Source: Sphingopyxis sp. (GTDB lineage: Bacteria; Pseudomonadota; Alphaproteobacteria; Sphingomonadales; Sphingomonadaceae). From it: DNA of 56,674 bases. The DNA lies in assembly GCF_016793825.1 (NCBI RefSeq), contig NZ_JAEULM010000034.1, positions 1 to 56,674 on the forward strand. The letters are read 5' to 3'. Of this stretch, positions 39,789-54,622 are shown piece by piece. Under the pieces are notes generated by a model that had not been told where the DNA came from, ran no database searches, and worked only from the letters and a program-made list of their open reading frames with translations. The number at the start of each line of letters is the position of its first letter. Within the stretch, counting starts at the first letter, position 1. Both the position numbers and the translations under genes were made by a program.

Positions 39789-39865
39789 TGGTCGGGGAGA
39801 GAGGATTCGAACCTCCGGCCCCTGCCTCCCGAAGACAGTGCTCTACCAGGCTGAGCTACTCCCCG
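39789..39865 (-). tRNA. tRNA-Pro (anticodon CGG); prophage attachment site
   Basis: Read leftward, acceptor CGGGGAG, D-arm GCTC...GAGC, anticodon stem CTGTC/GGCAG with loop TTCGGGA (anticodon CGG), T-arm with GGTTCGAATCC, and encoded 3' CCA are all present. The 3' end of the gene faces the prophage, so the right attachment site most likely overlaps the T-arm/acceptor half, and the tRNA remains intact after integration. Confidence 0.97.
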
Positions 39866-45293: not shown

Positions 45294-48200
45294 TTACAGC
45301 CCCAACCCCGCGAAGCTCGTCTGGTCGAACTTCAGCTTGAAGGTGACGTAGGCACCCGACCGCGAGAAGCGCGCGTCCTCGAAGTCGCGGTCGTGGAAGC
45401 CCGCGAAATTATAGCCGAACGTGATGTTGGCGTTCTTCATCGGCGCCAGCGTCACGGTCGGGCCGCCGGCCCACGCAACCGTATCGCCGCCGGTGCCGAT
45501 CCGCGCGGTGCCCGAGGCGCCGACATCGACATTTTCGCTCAGGTTGAAGCGGAAGTCGGCGCCGAGCAGGTTCGACCAGCCCTTCACATCATCCGCGCCA
45601 AAGCGATCGAAATTGTACCGGGTGCCCCAGAAAAAGCCGATCTCGGCGCGTTCGTACCAATTGTCGCCCCCGCCGATCCCGCGGTCGCCGAGCGGCGTCC
45701 AGTTGATCGACAGGCTATTGAGCAGGCGGCGGCTTGTTGCGTCACCATCGATCGTCAGCGCTATGTCGCCAACGGGACCGGCTTGACCCGCGATGGCGTC
45801 GCGAACCTTGTCCGAACGGAACTCGCTCTTGTTGAGCCAGGCGACCCGTGAGTCGGCGGGACGGTGCGCCCAGCTTGCCTCGAAGGTGATGACTTCGGTC
45901 GTCGGCGTCGCACCGGCGCCGCTTGCCTTTGCATAAGTGAATAGTGCGCCAACCGCCTGTCCCTCGCCAAGCTGGCGGAGGCCGCCGAGCGTCAGACCAT
46001 AGCGATTGGCGAGTTCGCCATCACGATATTCGGCGCGCCCGGTCAGCGTCCACCGGTCGCTGCGATAGGTCGCGCCGGCGCTGATCGCGGTGAAATCTTC
46101 GGTCAACGTGCCGTTGCTGCCCAGGAAGCCACCCGATGCGACCGGTTGATCAACATTGAGGACGTCCTGGGCGCGGATGCCGCCGAGTGTGCGGTTGCCG
46201 TCGAGCGACAGGTCGATCGACCAATGCTCGTCGAGCTTCAGCGACTGCGACAGGCCGTAGGCGGCGAAGGCGCGGGGGCCATATTCGCCAATGTCCTGTT
46301 GGTTCGCGGTGGCGAGAAGGCGTGCGCCCGCCCACGGGGCGAGGTCGAAGCCGATCCGCGCTGTGCGCGCGCGGACCGTATCGCCGTCCGCGATTTCATA
46401 GCTGCCGACCAGATTGACATCGCGGGTCACGGCATAACGCGCGCCGATGCGGTGACGGGTCGGGAAATCGACGCTGCCATCCTTGCCGCCGAGCGCGAAT
46501 TCGGTCTGGGCGTCGAGTTCGAGTTTCTTGTCGAACATCCGCTGCGTCGCGCCAAGCTGAACGATGTTCGACGTGTTGCGCGAGCTGTCGGACAGCCGGT
46601 CGTCGGCATGCGTCAAGCCCGCGCGGAACACCGTCGTTCCGTTGTCATATTCGACCAGTGCACGGGCGGCGCGGCGGCGGGCGTCGATATCGAGATAATC
46701 CTCCTGCCAGGCGCTGCCGGTGATCGACAACGCCCGGCTTGCCTTCAGGCGGGCATCGAACCCGAACTTGCGCGTGCCGTCCTCGCCGCGATTGAGCTGA
46801 CCGGTGCCGAAGCCCGCCTCGCGTTCGCGGACATAGGCCAGGAAATCGGCGTTGCTGCTGTGATGCTCCGCCTCGACCAGCCACGCTTTGGCGGTGCCAG
46901 CGGCAACACCGCCATTCCTGGCCTTGGCATCGCTGACCGCATATTCGGCGCGCACTTCGGTATCGATGCTGGGCCGATAGCGGGCGTCGACACCGCCAAG
47001 ATTGGTTTTCGCGTCGTTGTCCTCGTCGTGAATAAAAGTCGCACCGACGCGAAGCTTTTCGTCGTTCGACTGGTAGCTGACGCGGCCGCCGGCGTTCAGC
47101 ACGCGCTCGCCGATCCCGTCGACCTCATATTCGGCGACGATGAACTGCGGATCGAGACTGGACGAGCGGCTGAGAACGGGCGAGCGGAAGCGGATCGTGC
47201 CTGCCAGATAGTCGATGTCATAGTCGATGTTCCGCGTCAGGCTGACGCTTTCGACGATCCGCTCGCTATGCAGCCGGTCGCGCGTTTCGATGACGATCCG
47301 TTCGCTGTTCGGCAGAATGTCGCGCGCGCCAAGCTGGTACGGACCGGTCAGGCCGTTCCCCTGGATCTCGTCGCGACGGAACCGATATGGCGTGTCGGCG
47401 ACGAAAGCCGTCGCGGCAAGATTGCGGCCACGATACTCGGCCTTGCCGCCGTTCAGCGCACGCTGATAGCGAGCAAGCTGCGGTTCCGAGATTCCCGTCT
47501 CGATATCGCCGAACATCGCATAGAATTGCGGCCGCTCGAGGCGGAGATAGAGCTTGCGGACCGAAGCGGCGTCATAGCGCGTTTCGTTGCGGTCGGCATA
47601 GATGGTGTAATAGGCGCGCGGATCGATCACGCCGCCGAAACGGGCGTCGTCCTTGTCCTTGTCGCTGTCGTACGCCAGCGTCATCAGCCATTTGCCCTGT
47701 ACGCGGCCCTTCGCATAGAGGGCGAGGCGTGCATCGGCGTTCAGATCGTCGAGCGTGTCGGCGACCGGCTCCATGCGGTCGTCGAGGGTGTTGTAGCCGA
47801 GCGTTCCGGCCGCGAAACCGACCACGGTCCACGGACGATCGCCCGGATCGAGCCAGGTTTCGATCGTCTGTCGGCGTTCGATCTTGTCGTCGCGGAAGTT
47901 GAAATCCATCGACAGCGTGCCGGATGCGGTCGTCGGTTCCAGTTCGATATAGGCGATGCCGTCGTCGCCATCGATGCGCCATACCGGTTGCGCGCGTTCG
48001 AGCCCGGCAAGCTGGAGGGCCTGCTGCGCGTCGGCCTCCACAGCGGGATAATAAGGCGCGGGAACGCTGAAATCACCGGTGAGGCCGGCACGGATCGGCT
48101 TGCCGTCGCGATCGGTCAGGCGAACCGCGATCACCGGCCGCGTCACGCCGTCGGCGATCAACACCGACTTTTCGCGGATCAGCGTCGCGCGCATCGGGGT

Positions 48201-50423
48201 GATCGAATAATGGACGCTGCGCTCGATCGTTTCGATCACGCCGCCATTTTCGTCCTTCACCACAGCAACGAGCCTGTTTTCGCCTTCGCGGATTTCGAGG
48301 CCGCGCCACAGGCTGACCGCGAGGAGACCATCGCCCGACTTCGTGGTTCCTTCAAACGTCAGGTCGTCGGCAGGCTTGCCGTTGACCGTCAGCGCGACCT
48401 TCTGGCTGGGCGCATGCTTGATCGCGGCGCGGATCGCCTTGGTGCGCGGGTTATGGTCGATTTCCGGGAAGAGCCAGCCGATGCCCGGCGTTTGCCCGGC
48501 GAGCCAGTCGCGGTTCGCGCCGGCGGCATCGGGATCGCTGATCGGCGTGGGTGCCATGAAGCTGTGGCTGTTCGGCGCCGCGCGCGGGGCGGCGACGGCG
48601 GCCCGGAAGTCGGCGCGCTTCAGCGAGCCGCCGCGCCCCTCGACAAAGCGCGAGATGGGGCTGCCCGCGCTCGCGGTGGAGCGGGCGCAGTCGATCGGCT
48701 CCCGATCGAGCGGCATCGTTGACGGGTCGATCTGGACGACATGGAGGCCGGGACGGACGCCTTCGAAATGATAGCGGCCGTCTTCGTCGGTGACGGTATA
48801 GCTGCCGTCCTGCAACATGACGCGCACACCCGCGATACCGGGTGCCTTGCCCGGGTCGACGGCGCAGCCGCCGTCGGTCACACGGCCGATGATCGTCATG
48901 CGGTCGCCAAGCTGGTCGCGTTTGATCGAGATCGTCGCTTCGGCGATATTGCTTTCGGTCCCGCGATTGTCGGCCGCCGACGCGCGGTTCAGGGCATTGC
49001 CCGGCTGTGCCGAGACGATGACTTCGGCGACATAGGTCAGCAGCACGGTGCCTGACGGCGCAACCGGAGGCAGAAGGACGGTGAAGTCGCGGCCGTTGGC
49101 ATCGACATTGGCGTCGATGCGCAAGCCGTTCGCGCGCACGGTATCGGCGCGAAGGCGCATCCCGGCGGGCAGGGTATCGCTGACCGTCACCGAGCCCGTC
49201 GAGCGTCGCGCGTCGCGGTTTGCTACCTCGATGCGGTATTGCACGACATCGCCCGGGACGGCTGTCTGTGTCGACGTTGTCTTGCGCAGCGTCAGCGGCA
49301 GGCCGGGCTGATCGACAGGGATATCGACGCGGACGGGCGCCGGGCTGTCGAGCGTGAATTCCAGCGCATAGCTTGCGTCGGTAATGGTGAACGGCAGGCC
49401 GTCATCGGGTCGGCGGAGACCCGCAAGATCCGCAGCGCTCGACTTCGAGGGCGCGGTATAAGGCGCGGGCGGCTCGACCACCAATCGGTAGGAGCCGGGC
49501 GCGACGAAGGGGAAGCGATAGTCGCCGGGGGGAAAGGTATAGACCTTTCCGCCTGCATCGGTGACATTCTGCCCCGTGATGACCGTCGAGGGATAGGCGC
49601 TGACGCCATCATCGCCGAATACCTGCGCGGGCTGGCCGGTCGCGGTGTTGATCAGCGTGACACGGCTGCCCGGAACGGCCGCGCCGTCGCCGCTGTCGAA
49701 AACGATGCCGAAGGGATCGACGAGGAAGTCGATCGTCGCGATCGCGACAAGACTGGCATTCGCCTGGTCGGTGACGCGCAGTTGGATCGGCGTTCCCGGA
49801 TTGACCGACAGGCGGCAATCGCCCGGAACGACCGCGGGCGGAACGCCGATCGTATTGATAAATCCGACAAACTCGCCGCTGTTCGCGGCGGTTTCGGTGA
49901 GCGTGATTCGTTCGCTGTCGCCATTGGCAAGATCGAGAATGACCGGGAGCGTATCGATCGCGTTCGGGTTGACGTTCGCCGAGGCAAGCGTGACGCCGAC
50001 CACCAGCACTTCTCCGGCGCGAAACGCATCGCTGCTCTGAAGGGAAGCGGGTGAGGTCGACATGCCCGCGTAGACGCCGGTCAGTTGAATCAATTCGCCG
50101 CCGCCATTCGATGCGGCAAGGCTTTGCGCGGCGATGATCGATCCGCCGCACAGGGTCGGGCGAAGCGGAACTGACTTGTTCCCACCTTCGTTCAGGATGC
50201 GGTACGTCTTGATGACGGGCTGGTCGGGCGGACGCGACGTCACCGTCACATCGACGCGGTTCGACAGCGTCTGGCCGGGCTGGCCGCCAATCTGGCTATT
50301 GTCGGTCCACTGCGCCGACGCGGTGTTGGAAATGACCTGGGCATACGCAGCCGGCGTCACGGGCAGCGAAGCTGCCGCGATCAGCGCGGTCACGAAGGAC
50401 AGATATTTCCGGTGGAATGTCAT
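45294..50423 (-). CDS. Giant surface protein: DUF11 and CarboxypepD_reg-like domains plus outer-membrane barrel
   Basis: 1,709 residues from the ATG at 50423 (MTFHRKYLSF). A signal peptide ends near AAYAQ (29). Secreted region 30-370 is beta-rich. A DUF11-like repeat at about 378-480 (PLTLRKTTSTQTAVPGDVV; VTVSDTLPAGMRLRAD) is followed by a SdrD/CarboxypepD_reg-like domain at about 508-565 (VMLQDGSYTVTDEDGRYHF). A segment at about 965-1100 carries the YDIDYLAGTIRF and GPYQLGARDILPNSERIVIE motifs, reminiscent of large outer-membrane secretion/gliding proteins such as SprA. The C-terminal 600 residues alternate polar and hydrophobic in barrel style. Last gene of a four-gene secreted locus; function unknown. 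Confidence 0.8.
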   Translation of the reverse strand: MTFHRKYLSFVTALIAAASLPVTPAAYAQVISNTASAQWTDNSQIGGQPGQTLSNRVDVTVTSRPPDQPVIKTYRILNEGGNKSVPLRPTLCGGSIIAAQSLAASNGGGELIQLTGVYAGMSTSPASLQSSDAFRAGEVLVVGVTLASANVNPNAIDTLPVILDLANGDSERITLTETAANSGEFVGFINTIGVPPAVVPGDCRLSVNPGTPIQLRVTDQANASLVAIATIDFLVDPFGIVFDSGDGAAVPGSRVTLINTATGQPAQVFGDDGVSAYPSTVITGQNVTDAGGKVYTFPPGDYRFPFVAPGSYRLVVEPPAPYTAPSKSSAADLAGLRRPDDGLPFTITDASYALEFTLDSPAPVRVDIPVDQPGLPLTLRKTTSTQTAVPGDVVQYRIEVANRDARRSTGSVTVSDTLPAGMRLRADTVRANGLRIDANVDANGRDFTVLLPPVAPSGTVLLTYVAEVIVSAQPGNALNRASAADNRGTESNIAEATISIKRDQLGDRMTIIGRVTDGGCAVDPGKAPGIAGVRVMLQDGSYTVTDEDGRYHFEGVRPGLHVVQIDPSTMPLDREPIDCARSTASAGSPISRFVEGRGGSLKRADFRAAVAAPRAAPNSHSFMAPTPISDPDAAGANRDWLAGQTPGIGWLFPEIDHNPRTKAIRAAIKHAPSQKVALTVNGKPADDLTFEGTTKSGDGLLAVSLWRGLEIREGENRLVAVVKDENGGVIETIERSVHYSITPMRATLIREKSVLIADGVTRPVIAVRLTDRDGKPIRAGLTGDFSVPAPYYPAVEADAQQALQLAGLERAQPVWRIDGDDGIAYIELEPTTASGTLSMDFNFRDDKIERRQTIETWLDPGDRPWTVVGFAAGTLGYNTLDDRMEPVADTLDDLNADARLALYAKGRVQGKWLMTLAYDSDKDKDDARFGGVIDPRAYYTIYADRNETRYDAASVRKLYLRLERPQFYAMFGDIETGISEPQLARYQRALNGGKAEYRGRNLAATAFVADTPYRFRRDEIQGNGLTGPYQLGARDILPNSERIVIETRDRLHSERIVESVSLTRNIDYDIDYLAGTIRFRSPVLSRSSSLDPQFIVAEYEVDGIGERVLNAGGRVSYQSNDEKLRVGATFIHDEDNDAKTNLGGVDARYRPSIDTEVRAEYAVSDAKARNGGVAAGTAKAWLVEAEHHSSNADFLAYVREREAGFGTGQLNRGEDGTRKFGFDARLKASRALSITGSAWQEDYLDIDARRRAARALVEYDNGTTVFRAGLTHADDRLSDSSRNTSNIVQLGATQRMFDKKLELDAQTEFALGGKDGSVDFPTRHRIGARYAVTRDVNLVGSYEIADGDTVRARTARIGFDLAPWAGARLLATANQQDIGEYGPRAFAAYGLSQSLKLDEHWSIDLSLDGNRTLGGIRAQDVLNVDQPVASGGFLGSNGTLTEDFTAISAGATYRSDRWTLTGRAEYRDGELANRYGLTLGGLRQLGEGQAVGALFTYAKASGAGATPTTEVITFEASWAHRPADSRVAWLNKSEFRSDKVRDAIAGQAGPVGDIALTIDGDATSRRLLNSLSINWTPLGDRGIGGGDNWYERAEIGFFWGTRYNFDRFGADDVKGWSNLLGADFRFNLSENVDVGASGTARIGTGGDTVAWAGGPTVTLAPMKNANITFGYNFAGFHDRDFEDARFSRSGAYVTFKLKFDQTSFAGLGL

Positions 50424-50440
50424 CGCTGGTCCCGAAGAGG

Positions 50441-50477
50441 GCAGCGGGAGCGCGCTTTCCGGCGCCACTCCCGCTGT
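50441..50477 (-). other. Intergenic hairpin between two surface-locus genes
   Basis: GCAGCGGGAG (50441-50450) pairs with CTCCCGCTGT (50468-50477), nine to ten base pairs with a 17-base loop. No T tract follows on the minus strand. It may stabilise the upstream mRNA, or lower expression of the giant protein relative to the small DUF11 proteins. Confidence 0.5.
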
Positions 50478-50494
50478 CCCGTCCTTCCGTCAGG

Positions 50495-51556
50495 TCAGTT
50501 GACCGTCGCGCGGAAAACGAGCGTGCTCGCCGCGCCGGCCGCGACCGATGCGATCGTGCCCGACACGTTCGGCGCGGTGTAACTGCCGCCTGCACTCCCA
50601 TTGAAGTTGCAGGTGGTGCCGGTCAGGGTGCCGCCGAGCAGGATCGAGCTTGTCACGAAGGTGAGCTGGCTCGGGACCGGGTCGGTGATCAGCACCGATG
50701 TAGCCGGCACGCTGCCGCTGTTGGACACTGCGATGCAATATTCGACGACCGCACCCGGGATCAGCTTTGGATTCGTCGTTCCGTTGATCGGGTCCGAAAT
50801 GACGCGGCTGCTCTTGGCGACCGCCAGCGTTGCCGTCTGCACCGTATAGTCGTCCGCCGCGCTGTGCGCGGCATCGCGCACCGCGTCGTTCACCCCGGCG
50901 ATGGTATCGGCGAATACCGTATCCTTGCCGGCGGTGTTGGCGCTGGTCGTTTCGGTGATCGCGGCGCCCTGGCTACCCACCGTGCCGCCTTCGCGGGCAG
51001 TAGCACGCAACTGGACCCCGGCGACGGCGTTGTTGGCAAGGCCGGCCGGAATATCGGCGACGATGAACAGGCGGATCGGCGTATCGACCGCCAGTTCGTC
51101 GATATAGGTCACGAGCGTATCGCCCGTATCCCAGCTTCCGACAGTGCCGGACGAGGTATTGTCGCGATAAATCCGGACGCTGCCGACATTGAACGTGTCG
51201 GTACCCCCATGCGCGGCGGTTCCGCCGGCGATCTGGGTCGCGGCAAGTTCAAAGTCGAGCACTTCGTTCGAGCTGTTGGTGAGCTGGAACGTCGTGACGG
51301 CGTTGGTCTGTCCCGGCACGACATTGGTCGTGACCGTACCCACTTCTTCGACAAGCAGGTTGATCTTGCGGTCGACCGTAAAGGTATCGGACGCCGTCTG
51401 CGAACCCTGCGCGACGCCACCGACCTGATAGGTGACGGTGGCGGTATTTGTAATCGAGGCGCCTGCGGTCGTCCCGGCTGCGAATGCCGGGTTGGCAACG
51501 ACGACGGACGCCGCTGCCAGACCGATGGAGCCCCAGTAAGTCAGCTTGCTGGTCAT
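50495..51556 (-). CDS. Secreted DUF11-type repeat protein
   Basis: 353 residues with a signal peptide (GSIGLAAASVVVANPAFAA) and AGGAG seven bases before the ATG. The mature part is Thr/Ser/Ala-rich beta sheet: ASITNTATVTYQVGGVAQG (partly shared with the start of the giant protein), and a C-terminal DUF11 unit (PGAVVEYCIAVSNSGSVPATSVLITDPVPSQLTF in pieces). DUF11 domains are Ig-like repeats of bacterial surface proteins. It lies between a 155-residue secreted protein and the giant barrel protein in the same direction. Confidence 0.82.
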   Translation of the reverse strand: MTSKLTYWGSIGLAAASVVVANPAFAAGTTAGASITNTATVTYQVGGVAQGSQTASDTFTVDRKINLLVEEVGTVTTNVVPGQTNAVTTFQLTNSSNEVLDFELAATQIAGGTAAHGGTDTFNVGSVRIYRDNTSSGTVGSWDTGDTLVTYIDELAVDTPIRLFIVADIPAGLANNAVAGVQLRATAREGGTVGSQGAAITETTSANTAGKDTVFADTIAGVNDAVRDAAHSAADDYTVQTATLAVAKSSRVISDPINGTTNPKLIPGAVVEYCIAVSNSGSVPATSVLITDPVPSQLTFVTSSILLGGTLTGTTCNFNGSAGGSYTAPNVSGTIASVAAGAASTLVFRATVN

Positions 51557-51630
51557 AGCTGATCTCCTAGGCTTGGGTCGGCTGCCTGATCCCCACCGCT
51601 GGCAACCGTTAAGCGGCTTTATTCAAACAC

Positions 51631-52098
51631 TTATTTGACAACCCCCCGAAACATCAGTTTGCCGGTCGCGCCCGCCGGGATCGGCTTTTGAAAGGCCCAG
51701 CGGATGTGCGTGACATCGGCCGGCTGTGCCGCGCGTCGGGTTCCGTCGGGCTGCATGACGCTCAGCGTTTCGAGCGTACCCCACGCCTTGCCGCCATCGA
51801 CCGAGACGAGCGGGCTGTTATTGCCGGCGCCAGCAAAGCGTACGGCCGACGGCATCGGGTTCGTGATCACGAACCGGTCGGCAGGCTGTGCACCCGCGTT
51901 GCGATAATTGAGTACGAAGACGAGCCGGTCGCCGGGAACGACGATCTTCGGCTCTTCGAGCAGAACCCGCTCCTTGCCGGCGGCATCGGTGGTCACGCGC
52001 TCCACGAACACGCTGTTGTCGAGCGCGACCTGGTTGGCGGCATAGGCCGGGGCGGGAACAACGGCGGCCAGAAATATCAGGAATGCCTTGATATTCAT
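51631..52098 (-). CDS. Small secreted DUF11-like protein
   Basis: 155 residues. Signal peptide IKAFLIFLAAVVPAPAYAA. The rest is one DUF11-like Ig domain: VVPGDRLVFVLNYRNAGAQPADRFVITNPMPSAVRFAG (in parts: VLNYRNAGAQPADRFVI). The ATG shares a base with the stop of the upstream 335-residue gene (TGATG). The single-domain form may be a subunit or cap of a surface polymer built with the two larger DUF11 proteins. Confidence 0.8.
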   Translation of the reverse strand: MNIKAFLIFLAAVVPAPAYAANQVALDNSVFVERVTTDAAGKERVLLEEPKIVVPGDRLVFVLNYRNAGAQPADRFVITNPMPSAVRFAGAGNNSPLVSVDGGKAWGTLETLSVMQPDGTRRAAQPADVTHIRWAFQKPIPAGATGKLMFRGVVK

Positions 52099-53105
52099 CA
52101 GTTTATCCTCGTCTGGAAGGTGACGGCGCGGGTTTGGCCACCGGCAACGGTGCCAAGGCCGACACGGATGCGCGTGCCATTGTAATCACCGGCATCGGTG
52201 TCGGCGGCGTCGGTCAGGCCGCTGCCGCCCAGTGTGATGGACCCGGCGACGTAAGCGGTGTTCGCCGGGATATTGTCGGTGATCGCGAGCCCGTTCACCG
52301 AACCCGATCCGGCGACTGTCGCGGTGATGGTGTAGGTGATCGTTGCGCCGGGAAGCGGCTCGCTGCCGCCGAACGGATCGACGACGGTTGCCGACTTGAC
52401 GAGCGTCACGGTCGCGGCCGCGACGCGGAATGCGCCATTGTCCTGGCCGTCGGCGCCGGTCGAGCCGACGATCGCATCGCCGCCGCCTTCGCCCTGGCCG
52501 GCAAAGCTCGTTCCCGGTGCCCCGGTGCCTGTTTTCGCGGCCGCGACCAGGGTCACGATACCGCGATTGCCGTCGACGACGGCGCCCGGGGTCGTTGCGA
52601 TCACGAAGACGCGGACGCTTTGGTCGGGATTCAGCACCGGATCGTTCGTGCCCGGTGCATACAGCGTGTCGGTGCTGGAATCGAAAATGCCGTCGCCGTT
52701 GTCGATATAGATCTGCGTGACGACGGGATCGTAGTTGTCGCCGCCGACATTGGCGATCGTGCTGAGGCCGAACGCTTCCTGCCCGTTTCCGGTATTGGTC
52801 ACCGAAAAGGTCAGCACCTGGCCCGTTGCGCCCGGTACGGTCGGCACGTCGGACGGGTTGCCGGACGCCACCGTGACGTCAAGCCGCTCGTCCACCCGCA
52901 GGTCGACGCGGTTCGAATCGATGGTCTGCGTGCCCGAACCATTGTCGAAGCTCGCGGTGGCGGTGTTGCTGATCGTGGTGCCTGCGCGGGTACCGGCGGC
53001 AAAGGCCGGCGTTGGCGACGTGAGCGTCGTGGCGAGCGCAAGGGCAATGGCAGAGGGAAATAGAAGCTTATGATGCTTCGCGCCCCCCACAGGCGCTTTC
53101 ATCAT
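52098..53105 (-). CDS. Secreted DUF11-type protein, first gene of the surface locus
   Basis: 335 residues from the ATG at 53105, with GGAG eight bases upstream; the longer upstream frame is not needed. Signal peptide LLFPSAIALALATTLTSPTPAFAA. The mature N-terminus repeats the ISNTATASFDNGSGTQTIDSNRVDLRV pattern (partial) found in the other locus members. The C-terminal DUF11 unit is GATITYTITATVAGSGSVNGLAITDNIPANTAY (in parts). A calcium-like DNGDGIFD loop is present. It starts the operon. Confidence 0.82.
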   Translation of the reverse strand: MMKAPVGGAKHHKLLFPSAIALALATTLTSPTPAFAAGTRAGTTISNTATASFDNGSGTQTIDSNRVDLRVDERLDVTVASGNPSDVPTVPGATGQVLTFSVTNTGNGQEAFGLSTIANVGGDNYDPVVTQIYIDNGDGIFDSSTDTLYAPGTNDPVLNPDQSVRVFVIATTPGAVVDGNRGIVTLVAAAKTGTGAPGTSFAGQGEGGGDAIVGSTGADGQDNGAFRVAAATVTLVKSATVVDPFGGSEPLPGATITYTITATVAGSGSVNGLAITDNIPANTAYVAGSITLGGSGLTDAADTDAGDYNGTRIRVGLGTVAGGQTRAVTFQTRIN

Positions 53106-54545: not shown

Positions 54546-54622
54546 GCGGGTGTAGCTCAGTTGGTTAGAGTGCCGGCCTGTCACGCCGGAGGTCGCGGGT
54601 TCGAGCCCCGTCACTCGCGCCA
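54546..54622 (+). tRNA. tRNA-Asp (anticodon GTC)
   Basis: Acceptor GCGGGTG/CACTCGC, D-arm AGCTCAGTTGGTTAGAGT, anticodon stem CCGGC/GCCGG with loop CTGTCAC (anticodon GTC), T-arm with GGTTCGAGCC and encoded CCA give a complete cloverleaf of 77 nt. Confidence 0.97.

Follow-up and report, generated by a model that had tools for sequence, protein, structure and literature searches.

In a stretch of 56,674 nucleotides from Sphingopyxis sp. (contig NZ_JAEULM010000034.1, the whole of which is called the window below), four genes on the minus strand, designated A to D, form one operon in the order A-B-C-D. This operon probably specifies a surface fibre whose subunits are held together by split DUF11 (CLIPPER) domains, with the giant protein D as the base, A and C as links, and B, together with the products of E-type genes found 3′ of D in related genomes, as caps. 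A bolder proposal, which is tentative and may well prove wrong, is that the system represents a covalent, chaperone-free class of Gram-negative fibre with self-locking tag-catcher joints, in which a barrel of about 35 strands serves as exit channel, base and first donor. An earlier note on this DNA had described the four co-directional genes with the sizes listed in Table 1, which are all present, and had proposed a surface-polymer display system combining small DUF11 proteins with a barrel. The conserved gene order and the 64 genomes shared by A, C and D support that proposal; the splitting of the domains had gone unnoticed. As the NTA(S/T)(A/V) start of the mature proteins corresponds to the piece missing from the truncated C-terminal DUF11 domains, the idea of small proteins displayed by a barrel becomes a donor-strand model. 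The gaps A/B, B/C and C/D are -1, 74 and 71 bases, the last counted to the ATG of D at 50423 (26 bases if D starts at an upstream GTG), and we take the genes flanking the operon, from their appearance, to be unrelated housekeeping genes.

The evidence is sequence-based and consists of truncated chain ends, a donor motif and its distribution, conserved residues and gene order. The DUF11 profile match in A and C covers about the last 90 residues and stops at position 84 of 114, which is the end of the protein; the DUF11 of D itself and the internal DUF11 of E are nearly complete and reach profile position 106-109. A, B, C and E all terminate just past strand F of a DUF11 domain. Mature A, C and D open with the G-strand hairpin lacking there, and B and E are without it. 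In the complete domain of E, the part after strand F reads (V/I)..(A/S)(A/S)GA.(I/V)TN.AEV, and the mature starts of A (AGTRAGTTISNTATASF), C (AGTTAGASITNTATVTY) and D (QVISNTASAQW) resemble it. The common NTA(S/T)(A/V) start of these three proteins, pointed out earlier, is also conserved in their homologues. The motif I.N.(A/V).(A/V/I/L).(Y/F/W) occurs within the first 140 residues in 36/39 A, 38/39 C and 39/39 D proteins and in 0/39 B and 0/25 E proteins, the E set including open reading frames (ORFs) away from D and at least one overlong call (L045); beyond residue 140 it occurs in one C and two D proteins and in none of A, B and E. The chain end falls in a single alignment column in 57 of 63 A proteins (five more are one residue longer), 52 of 55 C proteins and 109 of 109 B proteins. 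The A and C sets comprise ORFs of 250-479 amino acids (aa) with a coverage of at least 70% and duplicates removed, and the B alignment excludes rows of 210 aa or more, genomes in both locus sets not being made unique; 61 of the 63 A proteins (L112 and L135 out) and 56 of the 57 D proteins (L083 out) were kept in two further sets, respectively. A subunit without its last immunoglobulin (Ig)-like strand that carries an N-terminal donor, the arrangement of chaperone-usher-type subunits, is thus recognizable at the level of sequence, in a DUF11 domain and not in a pilin family.

The earlier claim that all four proteins carry DUF11 units holds for C and D (33.4 and 39.1 bits, both above the Pfam cut-off of 24.6) and for A when its domain is isolated (20.2 bits for the whole protein, 27.6 bits for the last 104 residues). 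It is weak for B because B scores below the cut-offs of both Pfam (16.6 bits) and TIGR01451 (18.0 vs 24), the latter being exceeded by A, C and D. The signal peptide described for each protein was found by eye in all four, as a hydrophobic signal-like N-terminal stretch ending in A.A.

Several comparisons bear on whether donors and acceptors complement each other. In joined acceptor-donor pairs, the DUF11 match runs on from profile position 84 to 98-99, and the score rises in three of four joins (A alone 27.6 bits, A+A 29.9, A+C 32.7; C alone 39.9, C+D 42.3), whereas a control segment joined instead of the donor lowers it (A 25.9, C 38.3). The first 168 residues of A alone match no Pfam family. 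With a profile of the complete domain of D, built without A and C, the true N-terminus was compared with control windows of 43 residues taken from its own protein. It outscores all of them in 53 of 61 A proteins and in 32 of 55 C proteins, with mean gains of 8.2 and 6.3 bits, respectively, vs 0.7 and 0.9 for the controls. Donor profiles searched against the 21 E proteins longer than 500 aa give weak single scores; by eye, 12 proteins for the A donor (any match, 17) and 11 for the C donor (any match, 18) have their best match on the G strand that follows strand F. A two-block matrix of the last DUF11 strands of D places the best site of A in the N-terminal 30% of the protein in 60/63 cases vs 18/63 for shuffled sequences, several of these sites falling in signal peptides.

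According to the accessible part of PMC12617251, DUF11 is a proven Lys-Asp-Asn isopeptide domain, named CLIPPER, that is common in fibrillar adhesins. In the whole DUF11 copy of D, K381, D416 and N479 are each present in 57/57 proteins. The acceptor of A retains K201 and D241 (each 61/61) and that of C retains K222 (55/55) and D266 (54/55), while the Asn lies in the donors of A (59/61), C (54/55, one gap) and D (56/57, one gap), as N11 of mature A and C and N33 of D; the 15 E acceptors displayed all have Lys and Asp, as judged by eye. With Lys and Asp in the acceptor and Asn in the donor, the isopeptide residues are divided as the fold is, and because one subunit contributes Lys and Asp and the donor strand of its neighbour contributes Asn, joints with A-, C- and E-type acceptors may lock covalently. 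The CLIPPER structure 9IFR is the best PDB match to the complete domain of E (E 0.026), with its Lys in register; counting from this Lys, the published Asn of 9IFR lands on an Asn in the chain and the published Asp one residue before an Asp.

The C-terminal half of D is barrel-like, as the earlier note had stated, in that the model of D 640-1709 (predicted local distance difference test, pLDDT, 79.1) has 35 strands of at least 10 residues from residue 848 on, counted by eye. The twelve best Foldseek matches of this part, among them SlpA, BtuB, MtrB, FimD and SprA, are all outer-membrane proteins, yet their template modelling (TM) scores are at most 0.29. PDB sequence searches gave no match for D at E <= 5 and, with a profile of D 640-1709, one weak glycoside hydrolase match only. 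The CarboxypepD_reg-like domain reported for D is matched by Pfam with 45.9 bits, and both motif strings that had been called SprA-like are present. SprA forms a barrel of 36 strands whose width admits folded cargo (PMC7463736). It is conceivable, although unlikely, that D acts as a translocon of the SprA kind, for which the DUF11 domains at the C-termini of A, B, C and E would serve as secretion signals, much as C-terminal domains do in type IX secretion; their conserved ends would then mark the end of a signal and not of an acceptor groove. The likeness of D to SprA is real but weak and local: the SprA model TIGR04189 (positions 613-689) matches D 1057-1136 with E 0.006, and the region D 860-1180 matches it in 26/57 homologues at E <= 1 (best 5.2e-4). 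Both proteins are very large and barrel-like in structure or model, the 35 long strands of D stand close to the 36 of SprA, and all subunits have one kind of C-terminal end. However, the similar segment is weak and spans about 80 residues, the score of D, which is the sole TIGR04189 match in the whole genome, is 17.5 bits against a cut-off of 200, the TM-scores are low, and the cargo domain Por_Secre_tail (type A C-terminal domain, TIGR04183) has no match in the genome at E <= 0.001. Filing D as SprA was therefore rejected, and the translocon explanation gives no reason why A, C and D alone should begin with the missing strand.

The model of mature A (pLDDT 95.4) is confident throughout, with strands 8-18, 23-34 and 288-298 among the confident elements. 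The confident folding of its N-terminal strands speaks for the split-domain fibre, and the model would also be compatible with an N-terminal hairpin that closes the C-terminal domain of its own chain, making A and C monomers with a circularly arranged DUF11, and FimA monomers are able to self-complement in this manner (PMC6615685, accessible part). This explanation is quite unlikely, since the hairpin of D stands in a protein that ends in a barrel and the truncated domain of B and E comes without a hairpin, so that donors and acceptors balance only between chains; FimA also illustrates that self-closure and polymer can coexist. In Foldseek, the best matches of mature A are multi-domain Ig-type proteins, mostly integrins, at low TM-scores; the donor-strand Saf pilin complex 5y9h, antigen I/II C-terminal domains and Cnm also appear in the list, all with low TM-scores. 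A PDB sequence search with A returned one weak match only.

The gene set behaves as a unit across genomes. Co-occurrence was examined in 199 genomes of the family, A being taken from a larger sample. D matches in 70 of them were reduced to 64 with D proper, five genomes having a member of a distant family only (G052, G098, G102, G107, G189) and one a decayed gene (G148); some of the D genes counted are cut by contig ends. C was found in 65 genomes, from which the weak match of G107 (2.2e-4) was taken out. A, C and D proper then occur in one identical set of 64/199 genomes, and B occurs in all 64. The earlier note had named a giant gene always occurring alone as grounds for abandoning its idea; in this sample, A, B and C accompanied each full-length D that was found. 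Forty regions of 20 kb were selected from D matches, and without L069 and L070, which belong to the distant barrel family, 38 regions from 37 genomes remain: the order A-B-C-D is present in 38/38, while flanking genes differ between regions. Among the named loci, which are the best 80 of 517, 24 were left unjudged for lack of 4 kb upstream or a full D, and 53 of the 56 judged show A-B-C-D, so that the conservation of the four-gene order in sphingomonads, suggested earlier as a check, was borne out. In one of the three exceptions C is duplicated, in another B is not called, and in the third the ORF at B is overlong. The nearest loci among the best 80 are from Sphingopyxis, with at most 92% identity to D 640-1709. 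Beyond the family, D is seldom found, with matches in 7/190 genomes of the class, the genome of the window included; the six others comprise a full-length D (G343), a long D-like protein (G454) and four matches over the barrel part, some of which carry a DUF11 part besides.

Natural fusions occur in G454, a genome of another family of the class, at locus L222, where the genes for two fused proteins are accompanied by a B-like gene and by another gene of 1,162 aa. One of the fused proteins (978 aa) contains two A-like units in one chain and ends in a truncated DUF11 again (to position 85 of 114), and the other (2,205 aa) has a subunit-like stretch ahead of a D-like part. In both proteins, the chain continues past the domain of the first unit with an Asn-bearing G-type strand, and in an alignment of fused, intact and joined split domains, K, D and N share columns, with the exception that protein D itself contributes a neighbouring Asn there. 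The fusion suggests an A/C-type subunit as the neighbour of D in the chain. It is highly improbable that A, B and C are ordinary surface adhesins and that D is an unrelated, porin-like protein which only shares a transcript with them: DUF11 is frequent in fibrillar adhesins (PMC12617251), but A, C and D are distributed identically over 199 genomes, their gene order is fixed while the flanks differ, and at L222 a subunit-like unit is fused to D and two units to each other.

An E-type gene lies 3′ of D within 80 bases in 20/38 regions, with a 4-base overlap in 15 of these. Some E genes encode the acceptor domain alone (163-180 aa); others often have extra N-terminal domains, and E is likely a tip adhesin. 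The genome of the window has an unlinked E-type gene (L071:7965-9944, contig C1) for a 659-aa protein with a proprotein-convertase P domain (P_proprotein) and two DUF11 matches, which ends like the other acceptors. A PDB sequence search with one E domain gave one antibody match only. Locus L060 has three E-type genes after D on the opposite strand. A second B-type gene of the window's genome is at L072:10117-10602 (contig C24), and further B-type genes apart from A, C and D are found at L079-L081, those at L080 and L081 lying a few kb from what we take to be a transketolase gene.

A number of observations weigh against the split-domain fibre. B occurs without A, C and D in 45 of the 199 genomes, and when it is joined to the donor of A, the DUF11 match is not extended. 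The Lys place of B is occupied by Arg (77/109) or Lys (22/109) and its Asp place by Asn (104/109); lacking Asp and mostly Lys, B is not expected to form an isopeptide bond. A profile mixing D and E domains is weak (9/61 A, 7/55 C), although its direction is unchanged. The two-block matrix is negative for C (29/55 vs 20/55 shuffled, scores 6.5 vs 7.0), and a covariation analysis of the donor strand against the remainder of A and C (61 and 55 rows, effective depth 50 and 49) is uninformative, with no preference for the C-terminal domain. A was modelled as a single chain only, and strand pairing between donor and acceptor has not been seen in any complex. The HMMER alignment puts the bonded Asn of 9IFR two columns off the NTA Asn. 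In the 2,205-aa fusion, the domain of the unit ahead of D is not matched by Pfam DUF11, and the internal domain of the 978-aa protein matches only partially, to the related family DUF7507. Finally, no dedicated chaperone was found, and the export of the subunits is left unexplained.

On balance, the split-domain fibre is the preferred reading, in which intermolecular pairing, fibre formation, the covalent bond and the order D-C-A...-B/E are inferred. D, with a donor only and a barrel, would be the base; A and C, with donor and acceptor, would be links; and B and E, with an acceptor only, would be chain ends. Signal peptides would take A, B, C and D across the inner membrane, and D would insert in the outer membrane. 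The donor, a stretch of about 35 residues at the N-terminus of mature A, C and D, would fill the acceptor of a neighbouring subunit, resulting in a whole domain across two chains. A Lys-Asn bond could then form in A-, C- and E-type acceptors, as in a natural tag-and-catcher pair. B would terminate the chain, and E, where present, would terminate it with an adhesive head. The size of the barrel-like part of D in the model could fit either the export of the other subunits or merely the holding of the fibre.

Table 1. Positions of the four genes and their features in the window.
Feature	Position	Strand	Description or basis
Gene A, 335 aa	52098..53105	-	Donor hairpin, middle domain and truncated C-terminal DUF11; proposed link subunit
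Gene B, 155 aa	51631..52098	-	Acceptor only (truncated, weak DUF11), without donor motif; proposed cap
Gene C, 353 aa	50495..51556	-	Donor hairpin, middle domain and truncated C-terminal DUF11; proposed link subunit
Gene D, 1,709 aa	45294..50423	-	Donor hairpin plus Ig-like and DUF11 domains; C-terminal half barrel-like; proposed base
A donor hairpin, mature residues 8-34, ISNTATASF...SNRVDLR	52896..52976	-	Model strands 8-18, 23-34
C donor hairpin, mature residues 8-36, SITNTATVTY...	51371..51457	-	Sequence
D donor hairpin, residues 29-62, QVISNTASAQW...SNRVDVTV	50238..50339	-	Sequence
A acceptor DUF11, ending after strand F (Lys201, Asp241 of mature A)	52101..52415	-	
C acceptor DUF11, ending after strand F (Lys222, Asp266 of mature C)	50498..50833	-	
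D complete internal DUF11 domain (K381, D416, N479)	48906..49304	-	Pfam
D CarboxypepD_reg / SdrD_B-like match	48726..48860	-	Pfam
D segment weakly matching SprA (TIGR04189 positions 613-689)	47016..47255	-	Profile match
D barrel-like part, from residue 848	45297..47882	-	Structure model

Elsewhere in the window, genes for tRNA-Pro (cgg) and tRNA-Asp (gtc) lie at 39789-39865 and 54546-54622, respectively. Among the other loci, L193 (1868-4074) has a duplicated C ahead of D, and the decayed remnant in G148 (L082:186-1146) is made up of short fragments, spread over several frames, that match E and D. A distant two-gene arrangement is found at L069, L070, L073, L075, L076 and L078, where a protein of about 1,200-1,500 aa resembling the D barrel (about 25-32% identity) adjoins a DUF11-rich protein of 1,460-2,840 aa, which ends in an OmpA domain in L073.

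Sphingomonads are common in water, soil and biofilms, and if the proposal is true, they carry an apparently undescribed fibre system. It would have reached donor-strand assembly from another domain family, and truncated DUF11 proteins as well as one class of very large barrels would gain a function. The proposal predicts ladders resistant to sodium dodecyl sulfate that are lost when one lysine is changed. Literature searches, from which most subscription papers and all bioRxiv preprints were beyond reach, found no description of such a system among the papers listed; it would be a variant of donor-strand fibres, and its covalent, barrel-based form possibly a new class. Two DUF11-related systems were considered and rejected: type XI secretion of DUF11 cargo, for which the accessible part of PMC12282271 has DUF11 only as a possible companion of DUF1194, and F-ENA fibres, where DUF11 is found only in an anchor protein according to the accessible part of PMC11952670.

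Among known systems, chaperone-usher pili also have an outer-membrane barrel, and their tip subunits are acceptor-only, as B and E are here. In type 1, P and Saf pili, an N-terminal strand is donated to an incomplete C-terminal Ig-like domain, as proposed for the operon (PMC6615685, accessible part). Unlike these pili, the operon uses the DUF11 family and a hairpin with isopeptide residues, and the barrel protein D itself carries a donor strand. Assignment to the chaperone-usher systems was rejected, since the PapD_N chaperone has no match in the genome at E <= 0.001 (an E. coli control was positive) and the operon has no usher (PF00577), D included; the only usher match of the genome (contig C18:24518-25822, 53.9 bits) lies away from the operon. 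Archaeal threads (Saci_0406) share the head-to-tail donor-strand filament, a proposed inter-subunit isopeptide bond and a proposed cap protein, but the proposed bond links an N-terminal Asp with an Asn at a distance of two subunits, whereas a Lys-Asn bond within one split domain is expected here (PMC9715654, accessible part). In contrast to the thread-bearing archaea, the host of the operon is Gram-negative, and the base would be a barrel.

The DUF11/CLIPPER structure 9IFR belongs to the same domain family, and Lys, Asp and Asn are all present in the complete copy of D. The CLIPPER bonds described in the accessible part of PMC12617251 are intramolecular, and that paper uses neither the term "split" nor "SpyTag", while the domain of A and C is divided between chains and its bond would be intermolecular. 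In DogTag/DogCatcher, as far as the accessible part of the source describes it, the tag strand carries one of the two bond residues and becomes locked in the catcher domain, which carries the second; the joints proposed for the operon resemble this. SpyTag/SpyCatcher follows the same principle of strand-into-domain locking. Both engineered pairs were made by dividing a whole domain, whereas in the operon the division would be natural and repeated along the chain; if the proposed reading is true, its joints would be a natural counterpart of the engineered split isopeptide pairs.

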